From Ehretia macrophylla (lineage: Eukaryota; Streptophyta; Magnoliopsida; Boraginales; Ehretiaceae), in contig CM075767.1 of the NCBI GenBank assembly GCA_037974665.1, positions 88,314,644-88,378,643 on the forward strand: a stretch of 64,000 bases of DNA, read 5' to 3'. The translations under genes and the position numbers were made by a program. The notes beneath the pieces are model-generated. The model was not told the DNA's origin. It did no database searches and saw nothing but the letters and a program-made list of their open reading frames with translations. Position 1 is the stretch's first letter. Each line of letters opens with the position of its first letter. Shown here in pieces: positions 16,183 through 59,790 of this stretch.

Positions 16183-16815
16183 TGTCACGCCCCAACCCGG
16201 CCTATAAAGGTTAGACTAGGGTGTGATCTAAACGTTCGGGACATATCACATGCTTAACCGTTTATGAAGATTTAACACTTAACGTTTTGGCCTAAACTCC
16301 AAATCTTTTTCGGAAAATCGGCAGCATAACGGCTGTAATTAGGCTCTTTGGTTTGACCTAATTCTCTAAATGCCTCAATTATTCCAATCATTAATCCAAT
16401 TCCATTAAGGACTCCTATTTGTCACCAACCGATTTGCCTACTAGTTTATCTTGAAAGTCTCGTTTGGTTAATAAGCCTAACATGATAACTATGTCCCGTT
16501 TATTTGTCAATTTCCTATCAGGCGAGTACCTATTATCCTTTAGTTTGCAAATGAGCACCTAAGTGAAATTAGATAGAATTAACTTAGTTGATTGTTCATC
16601 TAGTGGTTTGAATACCTACGATAACTACTAATTAAGAAAACGAAAGCAAACAACCAAATAAAAGTTCGTCCGGTTATAGATAGTACAATCCCAGAATTAG
16701 ACCCAAATTATAACGGGGTCATTTACATCAATGAAATGAGTAGTTGGCAATCAAACACAACATCCATATAGCAACCACTTTCAGGCAAAGCACAAAAGCA
16801 CGTAGGGACAGACAA

Positions 16816-16878
16816 TCACTCCAAGGAATCATCGATAGGCACGTTGTCCTCGGGTACCTGTACCTGTTCTTCTTCACC
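16816..16878 (-). other. Conserved short open frame after a splice-acceptor-like site in the LTR
   Basis: On the minus strand a pyrimidine-rich TTTTTATCACAG is followed by GGTGAAGAAGAA and an open frame that reads EEEQVQVPEDNVPIDD and ends in TGA at 16816-16818. The same frame is in the second LTR (30546-30608). Whether it is translated is unknown. Confidence 0.3.
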
Positions 16879-19004
16879 TGTGATAAAAAAGAGGGTGAGT
16901 CCTTATGAACTCAGCGAGGGGGAACGAGAAATACGTTTTGAAACTCATTTTCCGGTTCAATTTATGAAAATCCCTTTTTCAAACATGAATATAACAGTAA
17001 AATCAAGTAAAGGAACAGAAATACTAGTCTTTTCTCCCCGAGGTTCTCTAGGAACCAAGCGAGAGTACTTATACACACAGTAGAAGGATACGGTGAGCTT
17101 TAGCTCTCAGATCAGTTCCAGAATCAGAAGTTACGGCCGACTTCAAATCATCCCCCAAACAAACCAGGTGGGTATACTCCGGATGTACCCCGAAATCCCA
17201 CGACCCAACTCTCCGAGGAAGTCTAGCCCCCAAGTGAGAGAGGGAATGGGACCATGGTAGTCACGGGTGCGCCGGCAAGCCCGATGTCGCCTGATGTGCG
17301 TGATCGCTACCATGCCAACAGGAAAGGTTGCAACCTTGTATGCAATGCACATTCATGACAGGTAATATATCACAGTAGGAGGACAACAAAGTAGGTTGCC
17401 TCCGGACAGTCATAAGATTGCACATTGACAGGTAGACAAGCAAGGCACGATAAGACAGGAAAATTTCACTTGAAGGCATATAGTGTTATATGAAAATTAA
17501 ACGGGCAGCCATGTAACACATGTAAAACAGGCCATATAACTCATTAAGAAGTCCACGTGATCAAATGATAAGATTATTCAACATGCAATGACATCAATCA
17601 TGGGTTCGGGTGCAAGAAAAGCTTATTTGTCAACATGCAATGGTCAAAATCATATTTGACGTTATAAGACATTAACGAGCAGCCCACTAAGCATATAATT
17701 CCCACACAATATCCAATTGATCAATACTTAGCAAAACTACCTAGTCATTAGGGTTTTCATTTCATGTATATTCGTGCAATTTGGGCCTCAACCCAACTCA
17801 AGGTCAATCTCAAACCATGCATCATTTAATTCAACATCCTCAAACATTCAAAACAGTCCACACAACATCCTATAGCTACAATCCCAAGCATCTAATTCAA
17901 CAAGAGGAGTCACAACAATATTTCCAAGCACAACATTAAGTGAAACCCTTACTGCAATAGGCTGTCTTCTCACAATCAATCGGATAAGCAAACAATATCC
18001 AAATTCAGTGAATAAGATGTAAAATTAAAGCTTAAGAATTTAACTAAAATCAAAAACAAACCTTGCATCAATTGGAGTTCGGGATCATTAGATATAGCCG
18101 AAACAGTGGAATAGCACAAAACTGTCCACATTTGCACACTTTTCAGAAATTGACGTTTTTGAGGTCCTTAGGGTCAGTTTTAGCCTTGGTCCATTTCTGA
18201 CAAAATTGTCCAGAACTGAAAAATATAGCAGCACACCATTTTCATGCATTTTGGACAACATTTACTAAGTCAAATATGGTTCGTTCCACAAGGTCTGTGC
18301 ATCTGCCAAAACCTGCTTCATTTTTCCAGATTTCCAGATTTGGTCACATTTTAAAGATTTGCCATTTTGAGGACCTTAGAGTCAAAATTAGCTTCTGCCT
18401 ATTTCTGGGAAAAATATTCAAAACTGTCCCAACTAGTTACCTACCAATTTTCATGCATTTTCAACATTCGTTTCCTAGCTAAACTTACCTCGAACAGACT
18501 GGTCAGAGAGCTGTGAACAATTTCGACTTCACCTAGCATCATTTTCAAGCCAAGATCTTGCCATGCATGGTTGTTTAAGCTTATGAACGACCATATAGCT
18601 CAATTACAGAAGCAAATATACACATTTATAAGCATGCATATGAATTTTTGAAGAGTTTTCAAAAGGTTTTAGCCCTCACCTTTGCAATCAACCCAAAAAA
18701 ATGCTCAAAACCTTGTTGAAGCTCAAATCTCTTCTTCTTCTTGCTTAGCCGAGATTCCAACTAGGTTTTCTCTATTTTTCCTTGCTTAGTGATCAATATA
18801 TTAGCACATGCATGAGGTTAGAACAAGAAGAAAAGAAATGGAAGCTTAAAAACTCACCAAGGCCGAAAATGGTGACTCAAAATGCTTGCATGTGTGTTTC
18901 TTGCATCCTAGCTTGCTTGGGTGAGTTTCTTTGCTTGTGGTTTGTCTTGATGCATCATAGGATGATGAAGATGAGCTAAGAGGTGGAGAGAACTCAGCCA
19001 AAAC

Positions 19005-19080
19005 CGAAATGGAGAGAGAGAGTGAGAGGGAGAGAGAGAAAATGTGAGGAAAGTGAGAGAAATGAGAGAAAAATGAGGCT
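19005..19080. repeat. GA-rich low-complexity tract in the LTR
   Basis: Repeated GAGAGA, GTGAGAGG and AAATGAGAG over about 75 bp. The matching part of the plus-strand LTR (about 28640-28680) is a shorter CT-rich tract, so the length changed since the copies separated. Confidence 0.75.
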
Positions 19081-19374
19081 TTTGCAAAAGTTGATGCATA
19101 TGTTGGCCTTGGGCATGCAAAAATTCAGATTTGTGTCATCTTTTGAATTGTTTTAACATGTGTGTAAGAGAATGTTGGGTATTTAGGGATTTTAGGTAGA
19201 ATAGAATATAGGATATGTTTAGAGGTTTGTGAGATTTTGTCTTGTAGTGAGTTTAAAATATAATATTTAGGTGTTAGTGGATTTTGTAGAGATTTGAATT
19301 AGGATTATAATAATAGTTAGTGGTGTTTGTAGGATTATTTTATAATCTAGTGCTTTGAGTAAGATTCTTTATTG

Positions 19375-19835
19375 ATTAGCGTGCGGGCACGCTTTCCTAA
19401 GTCTAGGGCACGTACAACGAGACACACACATAAATCAATATAGGGCACGAATCACGAGGTAGACAGGAACTACGAGGTAAGACACGGACTTCAAGACTAA
19501 TGCACACAATCCTAGGTGAATCCACGTAAACCAATGCAAGGCACGTAATTCAATGTAATGCACACAAATCGAGGTATGACTCTTAAACCTAGGTTAAGGT
19601 ACTCAGTTCAAGGTTAGGGCACACGAAACGAGGTAACACACATACATCGAGGTCAGGGCACGTATTTCTAGGTATCGCACGTGAGTCGGGGATTAGGGCA
19701 TACTATTCAAGGTCAAGGCACGTATGACGAGGTATGCACGAAAAACAAGACAGAACACAGAATTCAAGGTCAGTCATATAATTAGGGGTCTATGGCACGC
19801 AAATCAAGGTAACACACGTTATACGGGGTCGGGCC
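19375..19835 (-). repeat. Degenerate ~20-bp tandem array at the LTR 5' end
   Basis: On the minus strand CCT-CGA-TTTACGTGC-CTTA-like units follow one another at roughly 20-bp spacing, with CGTG as the most constant core. It is the counterpart of the array at 27680-28115. Confidence 0.75.
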
Positions 19836-19840
19836 TCACA

Positions 19841-27653: not shown

Positions 27654-27659
27654 GGGTGC
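27654..27659 (+). pseudogene. 5S rRNA: 5S rRNA gene, copy 36, 5' stub (GGGTGC)
   Basis: The first six bases of a 5S gene, cut by the LTR at 27660. The upstream element is also short: ACACATAGGAATTG, missing two bases of CATATAGG. The rest of the gene is at 31239-31356. Confidence 0.92.
27655..27659. repeat. Target site duplication GGTGC, left
   Basis: GGTGC, bases 2-6 of the 5S gene, stands directly before the LTR and again directly after it at 31239-31243. Confidence 0.94.
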
Positions 27660-27679
27660 TGTGAGGCCCAACCCCGAAT

Positions 27680-28115
27680 AACATGTCCTACCTCGATTTA
27701 CGCACTTTAGACCTAAAATTATATGACCGACCTTAGATTACGTGTCGTGTCTTGGTTTTCTTGCATACCTCATCATACGTGCCTTGACCTAGAATAGTGT
27801 GCCCTAATCCCCGACTTACGTGCGGTACCTAGAAATACATGCCCTGACCTCGATATACGTGCGTTACCTCATTTCGTGTGCCCTAACCTTGAACTGCGTA
27901 CCTTAACCTAGGTTTAAGAGTCGTACCTCGATTTGCGTGCATTATATTGAATTACGTGCCTTGCATTGTTTTACGTGTATTCACCTAGGATTGTGTGCAT
28001 TAGTCTTGAAGTCCGTGTCTTACCTCGTAGTTTGTGTCTACCTTGTGATTCGTGCACTGTATTGATTTCTGTGTGTGTCTCGTAGTGCGTGCCCTAGACT
28101 TAGGAAAGCGTGCCC
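27680..28115 (+). repeat. Degenerate ~20-bp tandem array in the LTR 5' end
   Basis: About twenty units begin with CCT and hold CGTG or a near version, for example CCTCGATATACGTGCGTTA, CCTAGAAATACATGCCCTGA and CCTCGATTTGCGTGCATTA. Spacing is mostly 19-21 bp with some decayed units. The LTR at 38226 has two units of the same motif in the same place. Being in the promoter-proximal part of an LTR, a regulatory role is possible, but this is inference. Confidence 0.78.
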
Positions 28116-29001
28116 GCACGCTAATCAATAAAGAATTCTACACAAAGCACTATACTATAAAATAATCCTACAAACACCACTAACTATTATTATAATCCTA
28201 ATTCAAATATCTACAAAATCCACTAACACCTAAATATTATATTTTAAACTCACTACAAGACAAAATCTCACAAACCTCTAAACATATCCTATATTCTATT
28301 CTACCTAAAATCCCTAAATACCCAACATTCTCTTACACACATGTTAAAACAATTCAAAAGATGACACAAAATCAGATTTTTGCATGCATGTTTAATTCAA
28401 AATGATTCTAGACAAGTCATGACACAAAAACACTTATCAATGCATAAAAAATTGCCCAAAACCACCTCAATTTCCTCTCATTTTCGACCAAACCACTCAT
28501 GGCCCATGCTAGCATTTTAAATTCCACCTTGAAGACACAAAAATCTGATTCACCAAGCTCAAGGCTGAACATGCTCATCAAAAATTGCAAAAGGCTTTAT
28601 TCCTTGTCATATTTTGTCATTTCTTCATTTCTTTCTCAAACTTCTTTCTCTCCCTCTCATTTCCTCTCTCCATTTCGGTTCTTGGCTGAGTTCTCTATCT
28701 CCTTGGCTTGTCTTCTTCATAACTTAGCTAAGCCAAGTCAAGCAATCATCAAGAAAGTCGAGCAAACAAGCTAGAGTTCGAAAATCACTCATGCATGTGC
28801 ATTGAAGCTTCATTTTCGGCCTAGGTGAGTTACTAAGCTTCCATTTCTTTTCTTCAAGTCCTAACTACATGCATGTACTAAGAGATTGCTTACTAGGCTA
28901 GGAAAAATAGAGAAAACCAAGTTGGAAACTCGGCTAAGCAAGAAGAAGAAGAAATTTGAGCTTCAACAAGGTGTTTGTGCATCTTTTGATTAATTGCAAA
29001 G

Positions 29002-30546
29002 GTGAGGGTTAAAACCTTTTGAAAACTCTTTAAAATTTCACATGCATGCTCATAAATGTGTGTATTTGCTTCTGTACTTGAGCTATATGGTCGTTCATAA
29101 GCTTAAACAACCATGCATGGCAAGATCTTGGCTTGAAAATGATGCTAGGTGAAGTCGAAATGGATGACAGCTCTCTGACCAGTCTGTTCGAGGTACGTTT
29201 AGCTAAGAAAATGATGTTGAAAATGCTTGAGCATTGGTAGATGACTAGTTTGGACAGTTTTAGACATTTTTCCCAGAAATAAGCCAAAGCTAATTTTGAC
29301 TCTAAGGTCCTCAAAATAGCATATCTTTAAAATGTGACAAAATCTGGAAATCTGGAGAAATGAAGCAGGTTTTGGCAGATGCACTGACCTTGTGAAACGT
29401 ACCATATTTGACCTAGTAAATTTTGTCCAAAATGCATGAAAATTGGTGTGCTGTTATATTTTTCAGTTCCGGAAAATTTTGTCAGAAATGGACCAAAGCT
29501 AAAACTGACTCTAAGGACCTCAAAAACGTTAATTTCTGAAAAGTGTGCAAATCTGGACAGTTTTGTGCTACCTCACTGTTTCGGCTATAACTAATGATTC
29601 TGAACTCCAATTGATGCAAGGTTTGTTTCTGAGTTTATTTAACTTCTTAAGCTTTAATTTTGAAATATTAATCACACGAATAAGCATGAAATAGAAACCC
29701 TAATGACTAGGTAGCTTTGCTAAGTGTTGATCTCTTGGTTATTGTGTGGAAATTATATGCTTAGTGGGCTGCCCATAAATGTTCTATAACTTCAAATGTG
29801 AATTTGACCATGGCATGTTGTCAAATAAACTTTTCTTGCTACCAAACCCACGTAAATGTTGTTGCATGTTGAATAATTCGTATCACTTGATTATATGGGC
29901 TTCTTAATGAGTTATATGGCCTGTTTTACATGTGTTACATGGCTGCCCGTTTGATGTTCATATGACTCTATATGCCTTTCAAGTAAAATTACTTGTCTTA
30001 TCGTGTCTTGTTTGACTACTTGACAACGTGCGATCTTATAACTGTTCGGAGGCAACCTACTTTGTTGTCCTCCTAATGTGATATGTTAAATGTTATAAAT
30101 GTGCATTGCATACAAGGTTGCAACCTTTCGTGTGGCATGGTAGCGTTTCACGTCCGCCGGGCGGCATCGGGCTTGCCGGTGCTACCGTGACTACCATGAT
30201 CCAATTCCCTCTCTCGCTTGGTATTCACCCTTGGAGAGTTGGGTCGTAGGATTTCGGGGTACATCCGGAGTACACACACCTGGCGTGTTTTGGGGTTATT
30301 TGAAGTCAGCCGCAACTTCTGATTCTGAAACTGATTTGAGAGCAAATGCTCACCGTATCCTTGAAATGATTGGTAATTGTATCCATTTCTCGATTTGTTT
30401 CTTATAATTGCTTACCATATTATTTGTAATATGTGACATGTTTTAAAAAGGGGTTTTCATAAATTGAACCGGAAAATGAGTTTCAAATCGTATTTCTCGT
30501 TTCCCCCTCGCTGAGTTCATAAGGACTCACCCTCTTTTTATCACAG
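29002..30546 (+). other. Possible intron within the LTR
   Basis: Donor-like AAAG/GTGAGG at 29002 and acceptor-like CTTTTTATCACAG ending at 30546. The related LTR at 38226-40664 has the same arrangement (AAAG/GTGAGA at 38992, GCTTACAG ending at 40158), and the minus-strand LTR also has both sites. Seen: the paired sites. Inferred: splicing of an LTR transcript. Confidence 0.3.
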
Positions 30547-30608
30547 GTGAAGAAGAACAGGTACAGGTACCCGAGGACAACGTGCCTATCGATGATTCCT
30601 TGGAGTGA
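30546..30608 (+). other. Conserved short open frame after the acceptor-like site
   Basis: From GGT at 30546-30548 the frame reads GEEEQVQVPEDNVPIDDSLE and stops at TGA 30606-30608. It is acidic. The frame at the same place in the third element (40158-40250) is also acidic and also stops just before the non-coding end of the LTR. No similarity to a known domain is recognised. Confidence 0.3.
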
Positions 30609-31238
30609 TTGCCTGTCCCTACGTGCTTTTGTGCCTTGCCTGAAAGTGGTTGCTATATGGATGTTGTGTTTGATTGCAACTATTCATTTTATTGATGTAA
30701 ATGACCCCGTTGTAATTTGGGTCTAATTCTGGGATTGTACTATCTATAACCGGATGAACTTTTATTTGGTTGTTTGCTTTCGTTTTCTTCATTAGTAGTT
30801 ATCGTAGGCATTCAAACCACTAGATGAACAATCAACTAAGTTAATTCTATCTAATTTCACTTAGGTGCTCATTTGCAAACTAAAGGATAATAGGTACTTG
30901 CATGATAGGAAATTGACAAATAAACGGGACATAGTTATCATGTTAGGCTTATTAACCAAACGAGACTTTCAAGATAAACTAGTAGGAAAATCGGTTGGTG
31001 ACAAATAGGAGTCTTTAATGGAATTGGATTAATGATTGGAATAATTGAGGCATTTAGAGAATTAGGTCAAACCAAAGAGCCCAATTACAGCCGTTATGCT
31101 GCCGGTTTACAGAAAATTTTGGAGTTTAGGCCAAAACGCTAAGTGTTAAATCTTTATAAACAGTTAAGTATGTGATATTACCTGAATGTTTAGATCACAC
31201 CCTAGTCTAACCTTCATAGGCCGGGTTGGGGCGTGACA

Positions 31239-31243
31239 GGTGC
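31239..31243. repeat. Target site duplication GGTGC, right
   Basis: Second copy of the GGTGC at 27655; it restores bases 2-6 of the 5S gene on the right side of the LTR. Confidence 0.94.
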
Positions 31244-31356
31244 GATCATACCAGCATTAATGCACCGGATCCCATCAGAACACCGAAGTTAAGCGTCCTT
31301 GGGAGAGAGTAGTACTAGGATGGGTGACCCCCTGGGAAGTCCTCGTGTTGCACCCC
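31239..31356 (+). pseudogene. 5S rRNA: 5S rRNA gene, copy 36, body without its own upstream element
   Basis: Bases 2-119 of a 5S gene follow the LTR end; the LTR's final A takes the place of base 1. Four changes: CACTAA to CATTAA, ACTCCG to ACACCG, GCGTGC to GCGTCC, GGGCGAG to GGGAGAG. The C box is intact. The -28 region is now the LTR terminus (GGCCGGGTTGGGGCGTGACA), with no TATA-like element. Since the main promoter is internal, weak transcription is still possible. Confidence 0.9.
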
Positions 31357-35409: not shown

Positions 35410-35649
35410 CTTTTCAATTTTTTTTGCCCTGGTTAGGGTTGCCAAGATACTTTATCCACCAAATCTCTATTACAGAATCCCACGGAACATTGGGCAACAC
35501 AACTTTGCTTCACTTAGAGGTCGGGCCCGCAAACCGAGGGCGTAGGGTTTGTGACCAGGTCTTCGTCGTTCCGGTGCCAATAACTTTTGATCCGTCAGGT
35601 ATTTCGTACGTCACAGCATACCGTTGCAAAGCTCTCTGAGACCTCTATA

Positions 35650-35900
35650 TGTTGATATGTTTATGTGATTAATTTACTTATGTGTCTAACTTTCTATGTG
35701 ACCAGTATGCCTTGTGTGTTAAGTGAACTAATGTGGTCAATATGTTTTATGTGATAACGTGCTATACGTACTCAATGTGTTGTAATTAATGTGCATTATG
35801 TGATTAATGTGCATTATGTGATTAATGTGTATTATGTGACAATTGTGTTTTATGTGATCAAAGTGCCTTATGTGAAGGTTGTTGCTTATGTGACTTTAAT
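35650..35900 (+). repeat. Degenerate ATTAATGTGCATTATGTG repeats
   Basis: An 18-bp unit is repeated almost perfectly three times around 35784-35838 and in decayed form on both sides (TTATGTGAT, AATGTG, GTGCCTTATGTGA). No coding potential seen. Confidence 0.75.
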
Positions 35901-38212
35901 TGTTTATAACTTACTTCTGTGATATAACCTGTTTATGTGTTGTTGGCTTCTTATATGCTGAATTGTGTGTTATGTGATAATGTTATATTATATGATAATC
36001 ATGCATTACGTTGTACCTATTTTCATGTGATGTAATTGTATATATTCTATAACTGTGGGTGATTCTTTTAGGTGAAGTAAGGATGACTGCTCGAGTTTTC
36101 AGAAATAGAGGTAGGCCATGATTTTGAATTATTATTATTCTAGAAGTTTATCAGTTAGATTTTAATTGTTATGTTTATGGATTTTAGTTTCGGCTTAGTG
36201 GATTGATCTTGATGTTCCTTTAGCGAGAATGAAGTTGTTCGAGGAAATAGCAATGTATCTTGATGATTATAATTACTTTTGTTGCCATGTTTAACTTGTT
36301 ATTACTTGGAGATGGATCATAAGTTGAGGTTTCCGTGAGTTTATCATTAGACACTTTTGGAGTCTCAACTCAGACTATGCTTTCTTGAGATCATTTTAGA
36401 ATGAATTTATTTGAGGAATTAGTGATGTATATTTGTGAATGGAATGAAGTGTAGTATAACATGTGAGTGTTTCTACTATTTGGGATTGCTATATTATTAA
36501 TGGATATTTTGGAGTTTTGATCTTTAAATCTTGGAGACAATTAGAGTGATTCCTGACTAAAGTTATTTTATTCAAAGATGTAATTGTTGGGAGATAGAAT
36601 TATTTGAGGAAATAAGAATGCATTTTGATGACTGAACATTTACTTACCTACGTCAAGATTTTGAGTTCTAGGTGGTATGACTTTCTAAATTGTTGATTGG
36701 GGATTCTCTTGTGTTATAATGGGTTAGTATGAATCTGTATTGTGTTATCAGATTTTGGAGTCTTCATTAGTTAATCTTGTTGGGTAATCGGTGATTTATC
36801 TTGTTTAGTGATTGGTCTGGTACGGAATGTAAAATTTTGGAGTGATTTATCTTGTTTGGTGATTGTTATCACACCTTAGGTTCTCTAGATCTCCTTAGTG
36901 TCTTGTTTTGGAGGAAGATAGATTGTAGGATTTGACTTGTTGGTATTTAAATGTGTAGGTGGGACACCCCCTTTGTGCTTCCTATTCTATTGGTCTTATT
37001 ATTCTTTTCTACTCTATTCTCACTTATTTGAGAGAGAGTTACACTTTTCTAGCCTGTCAATTGTTTCTTGAAAGTTTGCTTATTGGATTAATGGATCCTA
37101 TACTCATTTGACATTGTTTCTATTCTTAACATTCATATTTGCTTCTTATAGCAATGTCACTTATTGGAGTTAAGGTTTGAGACTTCTATATTTCATTCTA
37201 TATCTCCAGCCATTGATTTCAATATTTCATTTCATCCTATTACTATTCATTTGAAAGTAATTTTTCCTTTGGTATACCATTTTACTTGTTCGAATTCCAC
37301 TTGCTTGATGTACTCCCTACCTAAGTACATTATTGTCATTCTTGTTGATCCTTGTAATCCTATTGTTTCATTATTAAATCCTGAGCCATTACTTTGCTTG
37401 TAATTGCTCATTTAATATACTCAGCATTGTCCTTTCTTATTTATACTTCTTTGGTTTTTGCGTGCTGAGATACTCATTATCTTGACACTCATATTTTCTA
37501 TTGAATTAATCATCTCTTATTTCTTAATTTCATTTCGCCTCAAGTACAACCTACTTGTTGGTTCCTTGAACAATCATCGAGAATTGAAATATCTACTTGT
37601 TCAGGAATTTTTGTTCAACATACTCAGCACTGTTTTGACTCGTCATCATCCTTTGTTTGTACTTATTTAACTGATAGGTGCTGAGACATTTCTTATCTTA
37701 GTTATCATGCTTCTTTATTAAACTATTAGCCCCTTGACTCTCTAACCTGTTTCACATCTTGTTCACTTGATTGTTGGCTCGAATATGACTTTCCATATTC
37801 TTATTTCCTTGTAAATTTCATAAGAGCCATATTCTGACCAATGTCACTTTTGAGATATTTCCTTGATCAGTAATCATTCATGTTATCGTAAATGAGTTTT
37901 TAAACCCTCGGGGTGTTCATAGAGCTCTTTTGTGTAGTAGGGGATGATTGATAATTAGTGGTGTCATGCTAAGACTTTGGAGTTGTGATTTCTTTCATAT
38001 GCAATATGATATTAGGTAGGAGAGAATTATGAATTGAAGATTGTCTTGGAATTATGATCATCAACTTGCAGTCAACAGAGTTTGTTCTTTTGAGGTCTTT
38101 GGTTAGGTGTCATCCTAAGAGATAAATGAGAACTAAGAGAAGTATTGTTAAGTGTAACGATTGAGGATTTAATTGTCAGTCAGTTCGAGAATTGCGCGGA
38201 CGCAATTGTTTT

Positions 38213-38225
38213 AAGGAGGGGAGAA
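38213..38225 (+). other. Polypurine tract
   Basis: AAGGAGGGGAGAA stands directly before TGTGAAACCCC. A purine run touching the 3' LTR is the plus-strand primer of reverse transcription in LTR retrotransposons. It fixes the orientation as plus and the LTR start at 38226. Confidence 0.85.
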
Positions 38226-38789
38226 TGTGAAACCCCAGTTTTCGTCTTTACCTCGATTTGCGTGTCTTTGCCTCGATTTGCGTGAATTAACCTGTCTATG
38301 TGCTATATGGCTTATAATATTTTGATATTAATACTCCTAGAACATGCTAAATGTGCATTCATGAAATTTTCATAAAAAACGGAGTCAGAAATTTTATCAT
38401 CGATTTTTAGTGAATAGTATTTTCGAAACACGTCCGCTATAATTTTGAAAATGGTCTTTTTAACCCTTCTAGACCTAGTCCACGGACTTTAATAGACCTG
38501 TGTTTGATTAAAACGGTTTTAAAATCGGCTTAGGAATTTATTAGGGTTTTTACACCGACTTTTGCGAAAATCGAGTTTTAAGCCGACTCGGGTGAAATTG
38601 TTTGATTGTAAAACTTCTTGTCACCTAAAAATAACCTACTTGAGCTATCTTGGGTGTTGGATAATTGTTTTGAACATTGGTGATCAAGAAAATGCATTTA
38701 AAGTCAAGAAAACACTAAAAATAATTAGTTTCCACTTTGACTTTCTTTTATTTATTTGACCTTTGCTTAATATATCATCAACAAACATT

Positions 38790-38802
38790 AAAAAAAAAAA
38801 AA
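38790..38802 (+). repeat. A13 homopolymer in the LTR
   Basis: Thirteen A followed by GCAAAACACCACC. Low-complexity; its length could be an assembly uncertainty. Confidence 0.85.
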
Positions 38803-39639
38803 GCAAAACACCACCAAAAACACACACAAAACCGTGGTTCCTTGTAGGAGAAAGATGAAGGCATTTTTCAAAGGTTTTCAAGCATTTTTCACATAGATTT
38901 TGCAATTCAAGTCCAAATCACTTCATTCAAAGCTTGATTTCACTTGTTTGGCATCCATTCTACACATTTCTTGCATCAAAACACATCAAAGGTGAGAGAA
39001 AAATTCTAGATCTCAAAACTCATATTTTGTGTTTATGCGTATAAATAATTATTGAACCGTTAAAATGTTAATCTGATGTTAGATTATTGCTCCATGCATG
39101 CTAGGGATCATTTATATATAATCCTATGAGATTTGAACGGTTGTAGCATAATTATTATTTTTCGGGTATTTAAAGTTGAATAATTTGGTTAATGTTGATT
39201 ATTTTGAGTTGTGTTGATCGGAATCGATTGCCGTCGATTTCTAAATGTTTGATAATTACATGGTAGTGCCGTTGTAATGCCAAATTTTTGATTACGATGT
39301 CCGTGCTAAAATCCGGAAATTTTAGCCATGACACATTAGGGTTTTAGGGTTATTGAGCATGATTTGGATGTATTTTGGTTGGTTTCCGAGGGGACTAATG
39401 TAGTTGATTGAATGGGTGAGTGTTTGAAACTGATTTGGATTTGTTTGGATTAGTAGGATGTAAGATATGATTATTTGAAGTTTAGGTTATCTTTCTTTAA
39501 ATTGTTGAACTGAGCCTTAGTTGATTGGGTGTGGTTTGAGTGATTGAATTGTGAGTTGATGATGGGTAAACTAGGGTTCGATTGTGTGTTTAATGCATGT
39601 TCAGTTGGATGACCTACTTTGTCATCTAACCTAGTTATT

Positions 39640-39720
39640 TGTTGTTAAATTAATTATTGATGTTATTATGATGATAATATGATTATTGATGATTATTGAT
39701 TGATGATTGATGTCGGGAGA
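39640..39720 (+). repeat. AT-rich ATTGATGATTATT microrepeats
   Basis: Short repeats of ATTATTGATG and GATTGATTGATG over about 80 bp within the LTR. No function visible. Confidence 0.7.
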
Positions 39721-40157
39721 TAGGTAGTTCTCCTGACTGTCCTCCTGTGAATGATTAATGTTTATTATTATTGCTGAGTCTTTGGTATGTGTGTGCCACC
39801 TCTCGGGCAGCATCGGGCTATCGGGTTGATAACGGCATGACTACCAGAGACTGCCTCCAGCTCGCATGACGGAGGTGTCATAGAAGGAGAGGTTATTGGG
39901 GTACCTCGGGTGCGTGAGTTTATGGGAGTCACAAGAAGGCTGTTGTGATCGTGATGGCATTTGGAGCTACACCGACTAGTGTATCCTTTATTGAATGGTC
40001 ATTATAGATTATGTGATGATAGTATTATTGATGTTATTGTGTGTTTACTTGCTCAAAGGATTATTTCCAAGGAGTATAGTGAATACTGTTAGAGATCTAT
40101 TTGATCCTCACTGGGCTTATTTTATATAAGCTCACTCTCTATTATTGCATGCTTACA

Positions 40158-40250
40158 GGTGTACTTGAGCAAAATTACGGATACGTGCCTCAAGAAGCTG
40201 AGAATGTGCTTTATGTGGATGAGTCTTATGTTCCGGAGTCTTATCCTTGA
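40158..40250 (+). other. Short open frame after an acceptor-like site, third element
   Basis: After GCTTACAG the frame reads GVLEQNYGYVPQEAENVLYV, then DESYVPESYP, and stops at 40248-40250. Position and acidic character match the frame at 30546-30608, though the residues differ. Coding status unknown. Confidence 0.28.
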
Positions 40251-40732
40251 TATTGTATTGCTTTACTATCTTGTAAATTAACTTAGTAGACTTTCATATG
40301 CTTTGTAGTTCATAATGTAGAAGATGTTGAAAAGTTAATGAATTAGTCGATGTTGTCTTAGTAGCCTTTCTTGTGTTTATGATTAGGTTGCTAGATTGGC
40401 TCAATATGTTTTCGTAATGTATATTAAGGTTCATGTATTATATTGGAACGGAGGCGTATAACGAAGAACGTTTATTGTTTATTATGGTTATGATGTATGT
40501 TGTTATTTTATTGAGGAGTTGTTTGTTGTATGGTTTGTGGAGTTAATGTATGATGTCCTATTGAGGTTGGTTTAGAGCCTCGGTATCCTATTTACTATCC
40601 TTATACTGCCGAAATTCCGTTGCGTCCTGACTGATCATAGGAGGGGTCGAGTTGGGGCGTGACACCCTACAACATTTCGATATCACGTCTTGCGAGGATG
40701 CTGCATTGTTGAAGCGGATGGGTTGTCGTTAA

Positions 40733-49615: not shown

Positions 49616-49734
49616 GGGAGCGATCATACCAGCACTAATGCAACGAATCCCATCAGAACTCCGAAGTTAAGCGTGCTTGGGCGACAGTAGTACTAGGATG
49701 GGTGACCCCCTGGGAAGTCCTCGTGTCGCACCCC
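49616..49734 (+). rRNA. 5S rRNA: 5S rRNA gene, copy 56 (type e)
   Basis: Full length. GGGTGC to GGGAGC, CACCGGAT to CAACGAAT, GCGAGAG to GCGACAG, GTGTTGC to GTGTCGC. A and C boxes intact. Upstream is unusual: CATATAAGAATGCTGCCAGCAAC. Confidence 0.91.
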
Positions 49735-50031
49735 ATTTTCAATTTTTTTTGCCCTGGTTGGGGTTGCCAAAAAACTTTATCCACCAAATCTATGTTACCG
49801 AATCCCACAGAACATTGGGCAAGACAACTTTGCTTCACGTAGAGACCGGGCCCGCAAACCGAGGGCGTAGGGTTTATGACCAGGTCTCCGTCGCTCCAGT
49901 GCCCATAACTTTTGATCCGTAAGGAGTTACGGGGCGCACAGCATACTGTTGCAAAGCTCTCTGAGAGCTCTACGACGGTGGCACCCAGCTTGCTTGCTAT
50001 GCCCATTTTGGTGCCTAAAATTGATCGTTTT

Positions 50032-50037
50032 CATCAG
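50032..50037 (+). other. Spacer deletion junction at CATCAG
   Basis: TTTTCATCAG runs directly into AGGGTCCTAC. In other units the spacer has CATCAGTTTCAG and, about 97 bases on, GACATCAGAGGGCCC. The loss between two CATCAG repeats leaves one copy and gives the 580-bp unit. Confidence 0.9.
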
Positions 50038-50195
50038 AGGGTCCTACAACGTGTCGGTATCACGTCTTGCGAGGATGCTGCGTTGTTGAAGCGGATGGGT
50101 TGTTGTTAAGCCCATTGGGCCTTTTTAATGGTCCATCTCTCTAGGCTGGCACTGTGAACCGTTAACACATATAGGAATTGTGCCCTCAACATGGC

Positions 50196-50872: not shown

Positions 50873-50991
50873 GGGAGCGATCATACCAGCACTAATGCAC
50901 CGAATCCCATCAAAACACTGAAGTTAAGCGTGCTTGGGTGACAGTAGTACTAGGATGGGTGACCCCTTGGGAAGTTCTCGTGTCGCACCCC
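50873..50991 (+). rRNA. 5S rRNA: 5S rRNA gene, copy 58 (type e)
   Basis: Full length. GGGTGC to GGGAGC, CCGGAT to CCGAAT, CAGAACTCCG to CAAAACACTG, GGGCGAGAG to GGGTGACAG, CCCCCTGG to CCCCTTGG, AGTCC to AGTTC, GTTGC to GTCGC. A and C boxes intact. Confidence 0.89.
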
Positions 50992-51552
50992 ATTTTCAAC
51001 TTTTTTTTCCCTGGTTAGGGTTGCCAAAAACCTTTATCCACCAAATCTCTATTACCGAATCCCACGGAACATTGGGCAAGACAACTTCATTTCAGGTAGA
51101 GGCTAGGCCAGCAAATCGAGGGCGTAGGGTTTATGACCAGGTCTCCGTCGCTCTAGTGCCCTTAACTTTTGATCCGTAAGGAGTTACGCGGTGCACAGCA
51201 TACCGTTGCAAAGCTCTCTGAGAGCTCTACGACGGTGGCAGCCAGCTTGCTCGCTTTGCCCATTTTTGGAGCCCAAAATTGAACGTTTTCATTAGTTTCA
51301 GGCCACTTTTCTTCTTTTGCTCTGTTTTTCCGTCCCGGATCGTAGGTCGGGAGCTATTAAAAGGACTAGAAACTGACTCGCGGTACATCAGAGGGTCCTA
51401 CAACGTGTCGATATCACATCTTGCGAGGATGCTGCGTTGTTGAAGCGGATGGGTTGTCGTTAAGCCCATTGGGCCTTTTGAATGGGCCATCTCTCTAGGC
51501 TGGCACTGTGAACCGTTAACACATATAGGATTTTTTGTGCCCTCAACATGAC

Positions 51553-51671
51553 TGGTTCGATCATACCAACAGTAATGCACCGGATCCTATCAGAACTCCG
51601 AAATTAAGCCTGCTTGGGCGAGAGTAGTACTTGGATGGGTGACCCCCTGGGAAGTCTTCGTGTTGCACCCC
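51553..51671 (+). rRNA. 5S rRNA: 5S rRNA gene, copy 59 (type f)
   Basis: Full length. TGGTTCGATC start, CAGCACTAAT to CAACAGTAAT, GATCCCATC to GATCCTATC, GAAGTTAAGCGTG to GAAATTAAGCCTG in the A box, ACTAGG to ACTTGG, TCCTCG to TCTTCG. Upstream TATAGGAATTG has four extra T (CATATAGGATTTTTTG), moving the TATA-like element to about -32. Confidence 0.88.
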
Positions 51672-52228
51672 CTCTTCAATTTTTTTTGCCCTGGTTAGGG
51701 TTGCCAAGATACTTTATTCACCAAATCTCTATTACCGAATCCCAAGGAACATTGGGCAAGAAAACTTCGCTTCACGTAGAGGCCGGGCCCGCAAACCGAA
51801 GGCATAGGGTTTGTGACCAGGTCTCCGTCGCTCTGGTGCCCATAACTTTTGATCCGTAAGGAGTTATGCGGCGCACAACATACCGTTGCAAAGCTCTCTG
51901 AGAGCTCTACGACGGGGGCCGCCAGCTTGCTCGCTATGCACATTTTTGGTGCACAAAATTGAATGTTTCATCAGTTTCAGCACACCTTTCTTCTTTTGCC
52001 CTATTTTTTCCTCCCGGATCGTACGTCGTGAGCTGTTAAAAGGACGACAACCTAACTCGCTGTACATCAGAGGGCCCTACAACATGTCGATATCAAGCCT
52101 TGCATGGATGCTGCGTTGCTAAAGCGGATGGGTTGTCGCTAAGCCCATTGGGCCTTTTGAATGGGTCATCTCTCTAGGCTGGCACTGTGAACCGTTAACA
52201 CATATAGGAATTGTGCCCTCAACATGAT

Positions 52229-52347
52229 GGGAGCGATCGTACCAGCAATAATGCACTGGATCCCATCAAAACTCCGAAGTTAAGCGTGCTTGGGCGAACG
52301 TAGTACTAGGATGGGTGACCCCCTGGGAAGTCCTAATGTTGCACCCC
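52229..52347 (+). rRNA. 5S rRNA: 5S rRNA gene, copy 60 (type g)
   Basis: Full length. GGGTGCGATCAT to GGGAGCGATCGT, CACTAA to CAATAA, CACCGG to CACTGG, CAGAAC to CAAAAC, GCGAGAGTAG to GCGAACGTAG, CTCGTG to CTAATG. A and C boxes intact; -1 is T. Confidence 0.89.
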
Positions 52348-52903
52348 CTTTTCAATTTTTTTTGCACTGGTTAGGGTTGCCAAGATACTTTATCCACCAA
52401 ATCTCTATTACCAAATCCCACGGAACATTGGGCAAGACAACTTCGCTTCACACAGAGGCCGTGCTCGCAAACCGAGGGCGTAGGGTTTGTGACCAGGTCT
52501 CCGTCGCTCCGATGCCTATAGATTTTGATCCGTAAGGAGTTACGCGACGCACAGCATACCGTTGAAAGCTTTATGTGAGCTCTACGACGGGGGCAGCTAG
52601 CTTGCTCGCTTTGCCATTTTTGGATCCCAAAATCGAACGTTTTCATCAGTTTCAGGCCACTTTTATTCTTTCGCCCTATTTTTCCATCCTGGATAGTACG
52701 TCGTGAGCTGTTAAAAGGACGACAACCTGACTCTCGATACATCAGAGGGCCTTACAACGTGTCGATATCACGTCTTGTGTGGATGCTGTGTTGTTAAAGC
52801 GGATGGGTTGTCGTTAAGCCCATTGGGCCTTTTGAATGGGCCATCTCCCTAGGCTGGGACTGTGAACCTTTAACACATATAGGAATTTTGCCGTCAACAT
52901 GAT

Positions 52904-53022
52904 GGGTGCGATCATACAAGCACTAATGCATCGGATCCTATCAGAACTCCGAAGTTAAGCATGATTGGGCGAGAGTAGTACTAGGATGGGTGACCCCCTT
53001 GGAAGTCCTCGTGTTGCACCCC
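52904..53022 (+). rRNA. 5S rRNA: 5S rRNA gene, copy 61 (type h)
   Basis: Full length. ATACCAG to ATACAAG, CACCGG to CATCGG, CCCATC to CCTATC, AGCGTGCTTG to AGCATGATTG in the A box, CCTGGG to CTTGGA-type. C box intact. Upstream TGTGCCCTC is TTTGCCGTC; -1 is T. Confidence 0.9.
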
Positions 53023-53287
53023 CTTTTCAAATTTTTTTGCCCAAGTTAGGGTTGCCAAGATACTTTATCGACCGAATCTCTTTTATCGAATCTCACGGAA
53101 CATTGGGCAAGACAACTTCGCTTCACGTAGAGACCGGGCCCGCAAACCGAGGGCGTAGGGTTTATGACCAGGTCTCCGTCGCTCCGGTGCCCACAACTTT
53201 TGATCTGTAATGAGTTACGCGACGCACAGCAAACCGTTGCAAAGCTCTCAGAGAGCTCTACGACGGGCGCAGCCAGCTTGCTCGCTG

Positions 53288-53302
53288 TGCCCTTTTTTTC
53301 CA
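53288..53302 (+). other. Spacer deletion junction, 60 bp, first copy
   Basis: GTGCCC is followed at once by seven T and CCATCCCGG. The usual GGAGCCCAAAATCG...CTTTTGCTCT stretch is missing. T-runs lie at both edges of the lost piece. The same loss at 57968 shows the two units share descent. Confidence 0.88.
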
Positions 53303-53519
53303 TCCCGGATCGTACGTCGTGAGCTGTTAAAAGGACGACAACCTGACTCGCGGTACATCAGAGGGCCCTACAACATGTCGATATCACGTCTTGCGAGGAT
53401 GCTGCGTTGTTTAAGCGGATGGGTTGTCATTAAGCCCATTGGGCCTTTTCAATGGGCTATCTCTCTAGGCTGGAGTTGTGAACCGTTAACACATATAGGA
53501 ATTGTGCCCTCAACATGAC

Positions 53520-55549: not shown

Positions 55550-55668
55550 GGGAGCGATCATACCAGCACTAATGCACCGAATCCCATCAGAACTCCAAAG
55601 TTAAGCGTGCTTGGGCGGCAGTAGTACTAGGATGGGTGACCCCCTGGGAAGTCGTCGTGTCGCATCGC
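55550..55668 (+). rRNA. 5S rRNA: 5S rRNA gene, copy 65 (type e)
   Basis: Full length. GGGTGC to GGGAGC, CCGGAT to CCGAAT, CCGAAG to CCAAAG, GCGAGAG to GCGGCAG, GTCCTCG to GTCGTCG, TTGCACCCC to TCGCATCGC. The ends pair poorly in helix I. A box core and C box intact. Confidence 0.86.
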
Positions 55669-56225
55669 ATTTTCAATTTTTTTTGCCCTGGTTAGGGTTG
55701 CCAAAAAACTTTATCCACCAAATCTCTATTACCGAATCCCACAGAACATTGGGCAAGACAACTTTGCTTCACGTAGAGACCGGGCTCGCAAACCGAGGGC
55801 GTAGGGTTTATGACCAGGTCTCCGTCGCTCCGGTGTCCATAACTTTTGATCCGTAGGGAGTTACGCGGCGCACAGTATACTTTTGCAAAGCTCTCTGAGA
55901 GCTCTACGACGGTGGCAGCCAGCTTGCTCGCTGTGCCCATTTTGGTGCTCAAAATCAATCGTTTTCATCAGTTTCAGGCCACTTTTATTCTTTTGCCCTG
56001 TTTTTCGGTCCCGGATCGTACGTCGTGAGCTATTAAAAGGACTACAAAATGACTTACGGTACATTATAGGGTCCTACAATGTTTCGATATCACGTCTTGC
56101 GAGGATGCTGAGTTGTTGAAGCGGATGGGTTGTCGTTAAGCCCATTGGGCCTTTTGAATGGGCCATCACTCTAGCCTGGCACTGTGGACCATTAACACAT
56201 TTACGAATTGTGCCGTCAACATGAC

Positions 56226-56344
56226 TGGTTCGATCATACCAGCAGTAATGCACCGGATTCTATCAGAACTCCGAAATTAAGCCTGCTTGGGCGAGAGTAG
56301 TACTTGGATGGGTGACCCCCTGGGAAGTCCTCCTGCTGCACCCC
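56226..56344 (+). rRNA. 5S rRNA: 5S rRNA gene, copy 66 (type f)
   Basis: Full length. TGGTTCGATC start, CACTAAT to CAGTAAT, GATCCCATC to GATTCTATC, GAAATTAAGCCTG in the A box, ACTAGG to ACTTGG, CTCGTGTTGC to CTCCTGCTGC. TATA-like element lost: CATTTACGAATTG. Confidence 0.87.
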
Positions 56345-56902
56345 CTTTTCAAGTTTTTTTGCCCTGGGTAGGGTTGCCAAGATACTTTATCCACAAAATC
56401 TCTATTACCGAATCCCACGGAAAATTGGGCAAGAAAACTTCGCTTCACATTGAGGCCGGGCCCGCAAACCGAGGGCATAAGGTTTGTGACCAGGTCTCCG
56501 TCGCTCTGGTGCACATAACTTTTGATCCGTAAGGAGTTACGCGGCGCACAGCATACCGTTGCAAAGCTCTCTGAGAGCTCTACGACGGGGGCCGCCAGCT
56601 TGCTCGCTATGCACATTTTTGGGGCACAAAATCTAAAATTTTCATCAGTTTCCGCACACTTTTCTTCTTTTGCCCTGTTTTTTCCTCCCGGATCGTACGT
56701 CGTGAGCTGTTAAAAGAAACACAACCTGACTCGCTGTACATCAGAGGGCCCTACAACATGTCGATATCAAGCCTTGCGTGGATGCTGCGTTGCTGAAGCG
56801 GAAGGGTTGTCGTTAAGCCCGTTAGGCCTTTTGAATGGGCCATCTCTCTAGGCTGGGACTGTGAACCGTTAACACAAATAGGAATTGTGCCCTCAACATG
56901 AT

Positions 56903-57021
56903 GGGAGCGATCGTACCAGCACTAATGCACTGGATCCCATCAAAACTCCGAAGTTAAGCTTGCTTGGGCGAATGTAGTACTATGATGGTTGATCCCCTGG
57001 GAAGTCCTCATGTTGCACCCC
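56903..57021 (+). rRNA. 5S rRNA: 5S rRNA gene, copy 67 (type g)
   Basis: Full length. GGGAGCGATCGT, CACTGG, CAAAAC, AGCGTG to AGCTTG, GCGAGAG to GCGAATG, ACTAGGATGGGTGACCCC to ACTATGATGGTTGATCCC in the C box, CTCGTG to CTCATG. TATA-like element is CAAATAGG. Confidence 0.86.
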
Positions 57022-57578
57022 CTTTTCAATTTTTTTTGCCCTGGTTAGGGTTGCCAAGATACTTTATCCACCAAATCTCTATTACCGAATCCAACAGAAC
57101 ATTGGGCAAGATAACTTTGGTTCACGTAGAGGCCGTGCCCGCAAACCGAGGGTGTAGGGTTTGTGACCAGGTCTCCGTCGCTCCGGTGCCCATAGCTTTT
57201 GATCCGTAAGGAGTTATGCGACGCACAGCATACCGTTGCAAAGCTCTCTGTGAGCTCTACGATGGGGGCAGCTAGCTTGCTCGCTTTGCCATTTTTGGAT
57301 CCCAAAATCGAACGTTTTCATCCGTTTTAGGCCACTTTTATTCTTTTTCCCTATTTTTCCATCCCGGATCGTACGTCGTGAGCTGTTAAAAGGACGACAA
57401 CCTGACTCTCGATACATCAGAGGGCCCTACAATGTGTCGATATCACGTCTTGCGAGGATGTTGCGTTGTTAAAGCGGATGGGTTGTGGTTAAGCCTATTG
57501 GGCCTTTTGAATGGGCCATCTCTCTAGGCTGGGACTGTGAACCGTTAACACATATAATAATTTTGCCCCCAACATGAT

Positions 57579-57697
57579 GGGTGCGATCATACCAGCACTA
57601 ATGCATCGGATCCCATCGGAACTCCGAAGTTAAGCGTGCTTGGGCGAGAGTAGTACTAGGATGGGTGACCCCCTGGGAAATCCACGTGTTGCACCCC
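57579..57697 (+). rRNA. 5S rRNA: 5S rRNA gene, copy 68 (type h)
   Basis: Four or five changes: CACCGG to CATCGG, CATCAG to CATCGG, GGGAAGTCCTCG to GGGAAATCCACG. All internal promoter parts intact. Upstream is CATATAATAATTTTGCCCCC; -1 is T. Confidence 0.91.
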
Positions 57698-57964
57698 CTT
57701 TTCAATTTTTTTTGCCTAGGTTAGGGTTGCCAAGATACTTTATCAACCGAATATCTTTTGCCGAATCCCAGGGAACATTGGGCAAGACAACTTCGCTTCA
57801 CGTAGAGACCGGGCCCGCAAACCGAAGGCGTATGGTTTGTGACCAGGTCTCCGTCGCTCCGGTGCCCACAACTTTTAATCCGTAATGAGTTACGCGACGC
57901 ACAGCATACCGTTGCAAAGCTCTCGTAGAGCTCTACGACGAGCGCAGCCAGCTTGCTCGCTGTT

Positions 57965-57978
57965 CCCTTTTTTTCCAT
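57965..57978 (+). other. Spacer deletion junction, 60 bp, second copy
   Basis: TTCCC, seven T, then CCATCTCGG: the same loss as at 53288, 4.68 kb away. It marks the two units as copies. Confidence 0.88.
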
Positions 57979-58193
57979 CTCGGATCGTACGTCGTGAGCT
58001 ATTAAAAGGACGACAACCTGACTTGCGGTACATCAGAGGGCCCTACAACATGTCGATATCACGTGTTGCGAGGATGCTTCGTTGTTGAAGCGGATGGGTT
58101 GTCGTTATGACCATTAGGCCTTTTGAATGGGCTATCTCTCTAGGCTGGAGCTGTGAACCGTTAACACACATAGGAATTGTGCCACAACATGAT

Positions 58194-59548: not shown

Positions 59549-59582
59549 GGGTGCGATCATACCAGCACTAATGCATCGGATC
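59549..59582 (+). pseudogene. 5S rRNA: 5S rRNA gene, copy 71, truncated after 34 bases
   Basis: GGGTGCGATCAT...GCATCGGATC, then GCACGTCGTGAGC, which is spacer normally about 465 bases from the gene start (CCGGATCGTACGTCGTGAGC). The join is at GGATC, common to gene and spacer. About 430 bp, including the internal promoter, is gone. The next gene starts only 242 bp after this one. Confidence 0.93.
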
Positions 59583-59790
59583 GCACGTCGTGAGCTATTA
59601 AAAGGACGACAACCTGACTCGTGGGACATCAGAGGGCCCTACAACTTGTCTATATCATGTCTTGCGAGGATGCTGCGTTGTTGTAGTGGATGGGTTGTCG
59701 TTAAGCCCATTTGGCCTTTTGAATGGGCCGTCTCTCTAAGTTGGCACTGTGAACCGTTAACACATTTAGCAATTGTGCCCTCAACATGAC

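Follow-up and report, generated by a model that had tools for sequence, protein, structure and literature searches.

The window, by which we mean the whole 64-kb stretch of Ehretia macrophylla DNA analysed here, contains a tandem array of 5S rRNA genes that we take to be of the plant type, judging from the gene sequence. Sixty-six of the 75 intervals in the array measure 675-682 bp, and the Rfam scores of the genes range from 62.2 to 115.5 bits. Three large intervals, those after 15869, 26979 and 35291, contain inserts of 3.7, 3.6 and 5.0 kb, referred to here as B, A and C, respectively (Table 1). Additional, truncated gene starts and partial units account for the intervals after 1527 (1,481 bp) and 58871 (920 bp). 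A tRNA search of the window returned no tRNA gene.

Table 1. Features of the 5S rRNA gene array and its inserts (positions within the window)
Feature	Positions	Strand	Description
Host array of 76 5S rRNA genes	177-63966	+	Rfam gathering score; interrupted by A, B and C
Insert B, best read as a solo LTR	16183-19840	-	3,658 bp; family of insert A, orientation opposite to A
5' fragment of the split 5S rRNA gene	27654-27659	+	Bases 1-6, GGGTGC; by comparison with uninterrupted units
Target duplication GGTGC, copy 1	27655-27659	+	Within the 5' gene fragment
Insert A, best read as a solo LTR	27660-31238	+	3,579 bp; starts TGTGAGGCCC, ends GGGTTGGGGCGTGACA; 38% GC
Rest of the split 5S gene	31238-31356	+	Rfam 5S_rRNA, 94.5 bits
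Target duplication GGTGC, copy 2	31239-31243	+	Exact 5-bp match to copy 1
Insert C, remnant of an LTR-like element	35648-40664	+	In 5S spacer; family other than that of A and B
Putative 3' LTR of insert C	38226-40664	+	2,439 bp; starts TGTGAAACCCC, ends GTTGGGGCGTGACA

Insert A splits a 5S rRNA gene between its sixth and seventh bases. Read from upstream to downstream, the junction runs ...CAACATGAC GGGTGC / TGTGAGGCCC...GGGTTGGGGCGTGACA / GGTGCGATCATACC..., and as the neighbouring units are uninterrupted, the state before the insertion is known. The original prediction had placed a TG...CA element of 3.58 kb in a 5S gene after base 6, with an exact 5-bp duplication of GGTGC, and both the element and the duplication were borne out at the coordinates in Table 1. 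Its identification of the insert as an LTR and its placement within the 5S gene were also right. Rfam calls a complete 5S gene downstream of the junction because the last base of the LTR, an A, stands in for base 1; this downstream part has 5 differences from the array consensus, the LTR-derived A included. From the TG/CA ends, the exact duplication and a sister copy in the window that aligns from end to end, we infer that the insertion is more than a chance resemblance. Within the first 450 bp of the insert A LTR, positions 27690-28110 carry a loose series of short related words (TTGACCTAGAATAGTGTGCCCTAA and similar), possibly the remains of a tandem repeat.

The sister copy, insert B, is located in the spacer at unit position 310-314, with an AGTTA duplication on both flanks. 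In an end-to-end alignment, A and B are identical in 3,007 of 3,363 ungapped columns (89.4%), with 511 gap columns, and their K2P distance is 0.115. The two copies share their termini, both starting with TGTGAGGCCC and both ending with GGCGTGACA. The original prediction included neither this copy, nor insert C, nor the decay of the 5S genes described below.

Inserts A and B are best read, from their sequence, as solo LTRs. Each has TG...CA ends and a short exact duplication (GGTGC for A, AGTTA for B), and each is a single repeat without an internal coding region. The longest direct repeat inside A measures only 144 bp at 69% identity and so does not make an LTR pair; that of B is 139 bp at 70%. 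Neither insert has a stop-to-stop frame of more than 108 amino acids, and an internal coding region of this family was not found within the 64-kb window. Coding remnants were also considered for all three inserts in a Pfam search of seven pieces, three from A and B and four from C, and none of the seven had a match at E up to 1. These pieces represent 6 of the 29 frames of at least 60 amino acids (2 of 11 in A, 1 of 11 in B and 3 of 7 in C) plus one further piece of C, so that most of the listed A and B frames lie outside this result.

Insert C is truncated at its 5' side. The 5S unit is broken at position 357 before the insert and resumes at position 524 after it, so the 5S spacer lacks about 166 bp here. 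A search for an LTR pair within insert C did not find one. A polypurine-like tract, AAGGAGGGGAGAA, stands directly before the putative 3' LTR, and this putative layout is as expected of a polypurine tract followed by a 3' LTR. The tract and the start of this LTR may resemble those of Tekay elements. The last 14 bases, GTTGGGGCGTGACA, are common to inserts C and A; apart from this end, A and C share a single 44-bp match at 77% identity, and a comparison of B with C gave no match at E up to 0.01. The occurrence of a polypurine-like tract before a stretch of C that has the 14-base end of A supports the reading of A and B as LTRs. It also disfavours a DNA transposon with inverted ends: the two ends form imperfect inverted repeats, yet the TG...CA ends and the 5-bp duplication again favour an LTR.

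A Cassandra element was rejected as well. The LTR of this TRIM is described as carrying the 5S promoter within it, so that the two are mobilised together (PMC10853983). Both Cassandra and insert A present an LTR joined to 5S sequence, but at insert A the 5S sequence belongs to the host. Rfam found no 5S match at the gathering score inside LTRs A and B, and BLAST of their inner parts against a reference 5S unit gave no match at E up to 1e-3. Relatives of the inserts were sought in viral and prokaryote contigs, where plant DNA is hardly expected. A 16-base pattern of the LTR end matched at 5 loci in viral contigs and 68 in prokaryote genome contigs; BLAST of these 73 loci gave no match to inserts A, B or C or to the reference 5S unit, and the pattern matches are therefore taken as chance. 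A 25-base spacer pattern had no match in the viral contigs.

We also examined the divergence of the units that host these inserts. The alignment comprised 68 units of the 76 genes; it omitted the units after 1527, 15869, 35291, 49616, 52904, 57579 and 58871 and the last, incomplete unit, and the unit before insert A was trimmed at the base preceding GGGTGC. The gene departs from the consensus by substitution at 5.8% of sites, and the spacer at 6.3%. When corrected for sequence context, the ratio of observed to expected change is 0.92 for the gene, compared with 0.75-1.52 for 439 overlapping spacer windows of equal length, 41% of which are at or below the value of the gene. Since gene and spacer are similar in both divergence and context-corrected rate, there is no clear constraint on the genes beyond that of the spacer, and this comparison did not clearly detect selection on them. 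Not one of the 68 aligned units is within a single substitution of the consensus gene, and the median number of differences from the consensus across all 76 genes is 7. Nevertheless, the results leave room for weak or past constraint, because the gene has a lower rate of difference at CHH sites (5.3% vs. 6.9% in the spacer) and the 40 bp upstream of the gene are less divergent than the gene itself (4.5% vs. 5.9%, in a gene-only alignment). Differences are found at 14.5% of CG sites in the gene and 13.4% in the spacer, at 10.6% and 11.8% of CHG sites, and at 3.3% and 3.0% of A/T sites, respectively. This excess of CG and CHG change is the pattern of methylated DNA, and the array is probably methylated and may be silent.

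We consider it highly likely that an LTR retrotransposon landed in a decaying, probably methylated 5S array and was later reduced to a solo LTR. The element would have entered a single unit of the tandem 5S rDNA through the customary 5-bp staggered cut, which fell by chance across gene bases +2 to +6, and recombination between its two LTRs would then have removed the internal part to leave a solo LTR and one duplication. The sister copy B would have followed the same course in a different unit, within the spacer. Units in the array would no longer have been homogenised or maintained as genes, and the array, as probable methylated heterochromatin, would have tolerated such insertions. We infer this order of events, and the LTR-LTR recombination behind the solo LTRs, from the present structure of the locus. 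A similar situation is described in wheat (PMC5688495). In the 5S rDNA region of chromosome 5BS (pool 52), several transposable elements break up strongly diverged 5S units; all but one lie in the spacer, the exception being the LTR retrotransposon Fatima, found within a 5S coding sequence. Mean divergence of the coding sequences is put there at 2.8% for the disrupted region and 1.1% for the intact region. The Ehretia array likewise has diverged 5S units with LTR insertions, one of which is in coding sequence. However, the wheat Fatima is described as a 2,084-bp piece among several other elements (PMC5688495), whereas here there are two clean solo LTRs with exact duplications. With this precedent and that of beet, discussed below, the insertion is a further case of a known kind. 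It is real but ordinary, and its value is as a clean example of 5S rDNA decay, in which units diverge, fastest at CG and CHG sites, and LTRs land in both gene and spacer.

An alternative is that the family favours a compartment, rDNA arrays or heterochromatin, without aiming at a particular base, as is reported for some chromoviruses. Of the three LTR inserts in the 64 kb, two are members of a single family, a possible sign that the array is preferred; these copies lie in opposite orientations within a single array, whose mutation pattern is that of methylated DNA. There are also precedents among chromoviruses: Beon1 of Beta vulgaris is described as occurring exclusively in 18S rDNA, sequenced at nucleotide 736, with similar integrations detected by PCR in wild beets, and the Reina and Tekay elements of banana map to heterochromatin (PMC3605345). 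Beon1 resembles insert A as an LTR element in an rRNA gene with a 5-bp duplication, but is confined in that account to 18S rDNA (PMC3605345), whereas the family of insert A has, within this window, one gene site and one spacer site in 5S rDNA. Against a compartment preference, the copies from which it is read all come from the array, and membership of any chromovirus clade is hypothetical. We regard this explanation as unlikely, although it deserves some weight. A bolder version, in which the lineage prefers 5S rDNA arrays so that copies accumulate there and help to break the arrays, with the +2 to +6 site one of many near gene starts, seems very doubtful to us. The locus would be of greater significance only if the LTR family were concentrated in 5S arrays.

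The split gene might, in principle, still be active: its internal promoter, with the LTR end now upstream of it, could drive a chimeric or altered 5S transcript. Its downstream part keeps bases 2-119, the score of this part falls within the range of the array, base 1 is supplied by the final A of the LTR, and the gene differs from the consensus at fewer positions than the median gene of the array. The native sequence before the gene, e.g., CACATATAGGAATTGTGCCCTCAACATGAC, is replaced at the split gene by TAACCTTCATAGGCCGGGTTGGGGCGTGAC. Comparison of the LTR end GTGAC-A with the native ATGAC-G shows that TGAC at -4 to -1 is kept, which could speak for transcription but which we read as coincidence. 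However, the TATA-like stretch is gone from its native distance, in agreement with the claim that the insertion left the internal promoter beside the LTR end in place of the TATA-like element. The split gene is also substituted at positions 45, 60 and 67, the last two of which presumably belong to the A box and the intermediate element, and its letters at the three positions are rare among the genes of the array (4, 9 and 3 of 76, respectively, the split gene counted). Because of these substitutions and the state of the array, in which the gene is under no clear constraint, a working chimeric gene is unlikely, and we judge such a transcript to be highly improbable.

The original prediction had also raised, with due caution, the possibility that the element prefers polymerase III genes as some Ty-type elements do. 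In the strong form of this idea, the LTR family targets such genes in the manner of Ty3 and Tj1, with transcription factors bringing the integration complex to the 5S start. The GGTGC duplication at +2 to +6 does adjoin the transcription start, which we take to be base 1, and a second copy of the family in the same array speaks for such targeting. In addition, Ty3 of yeast and Tj1 of Schizosaccharomyces japonicus are described as inserting at polymerase III gene starts, Tj1 also at 5S genes, so that insert A shares with them a position at or near such a start (PMC5911963). However, Ty3 sites are described at 1-4 bp, and Tj1 sites at 1-10 bp, upstream of the start, and both recur (PMC5911963), whereas the cut of insert A is within the gene and is known from one case; its duplication is near the Ty3 site but off it. 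Copy B, moreover, lies about 310 bp into the unit, far from the gene start, and C is in the spacer too. The gene makes up 119 of the 677 bp of a unit, and the chance that at least one random insertion falls within it is 0.32 for two inserts and 0.44 for three; for a zone of 30 bp about the start, whose width was set post hoc, it is 0.09 and 0.13. One of the two copies of the family in the window is in a gene and the other in spacer, and these two are too few to exclude a preference. With one of the three LTR inserts in a gene, the result is within random landing and therefore gives no support for targeting of polymerase III genes, so that the earlier hint is unsupported; equally, three inserts do not disprove it. 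We regard targeting by transcription factors as highly improbable.

Other rearrangements of the array were noted apart from the inserts. Four successive units at 50873-53519 recur at 55550-58193, approximately 4,675 bp apart, with the gene starts GGGAGC, TGGTTC, GGGAGC and GGGTGC in shared order and a last unit of 615-616 bp. Over their first 600 bases the recurring units are 90.5-93.8% identical, compared with 86.4-88.3% for four adjacent pairs, and the recurrence appears to be an older duplication spanning about seven units. Two further 5S genes, at 2195-2227 and 59549-59585, end at about base 33 and base 37, respectively, at CGGAT(C), and are joined there to spacer with the short matching words GAT and CGGATC; their shortening looks like deletion through short matching sequences. 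Finally, three units are shorter than the rest, at 49616-50195 (580 bp), 52904-53519 (616 bp) and 57579-58193 (615 bp), and thus spacer deletions occur in the array.
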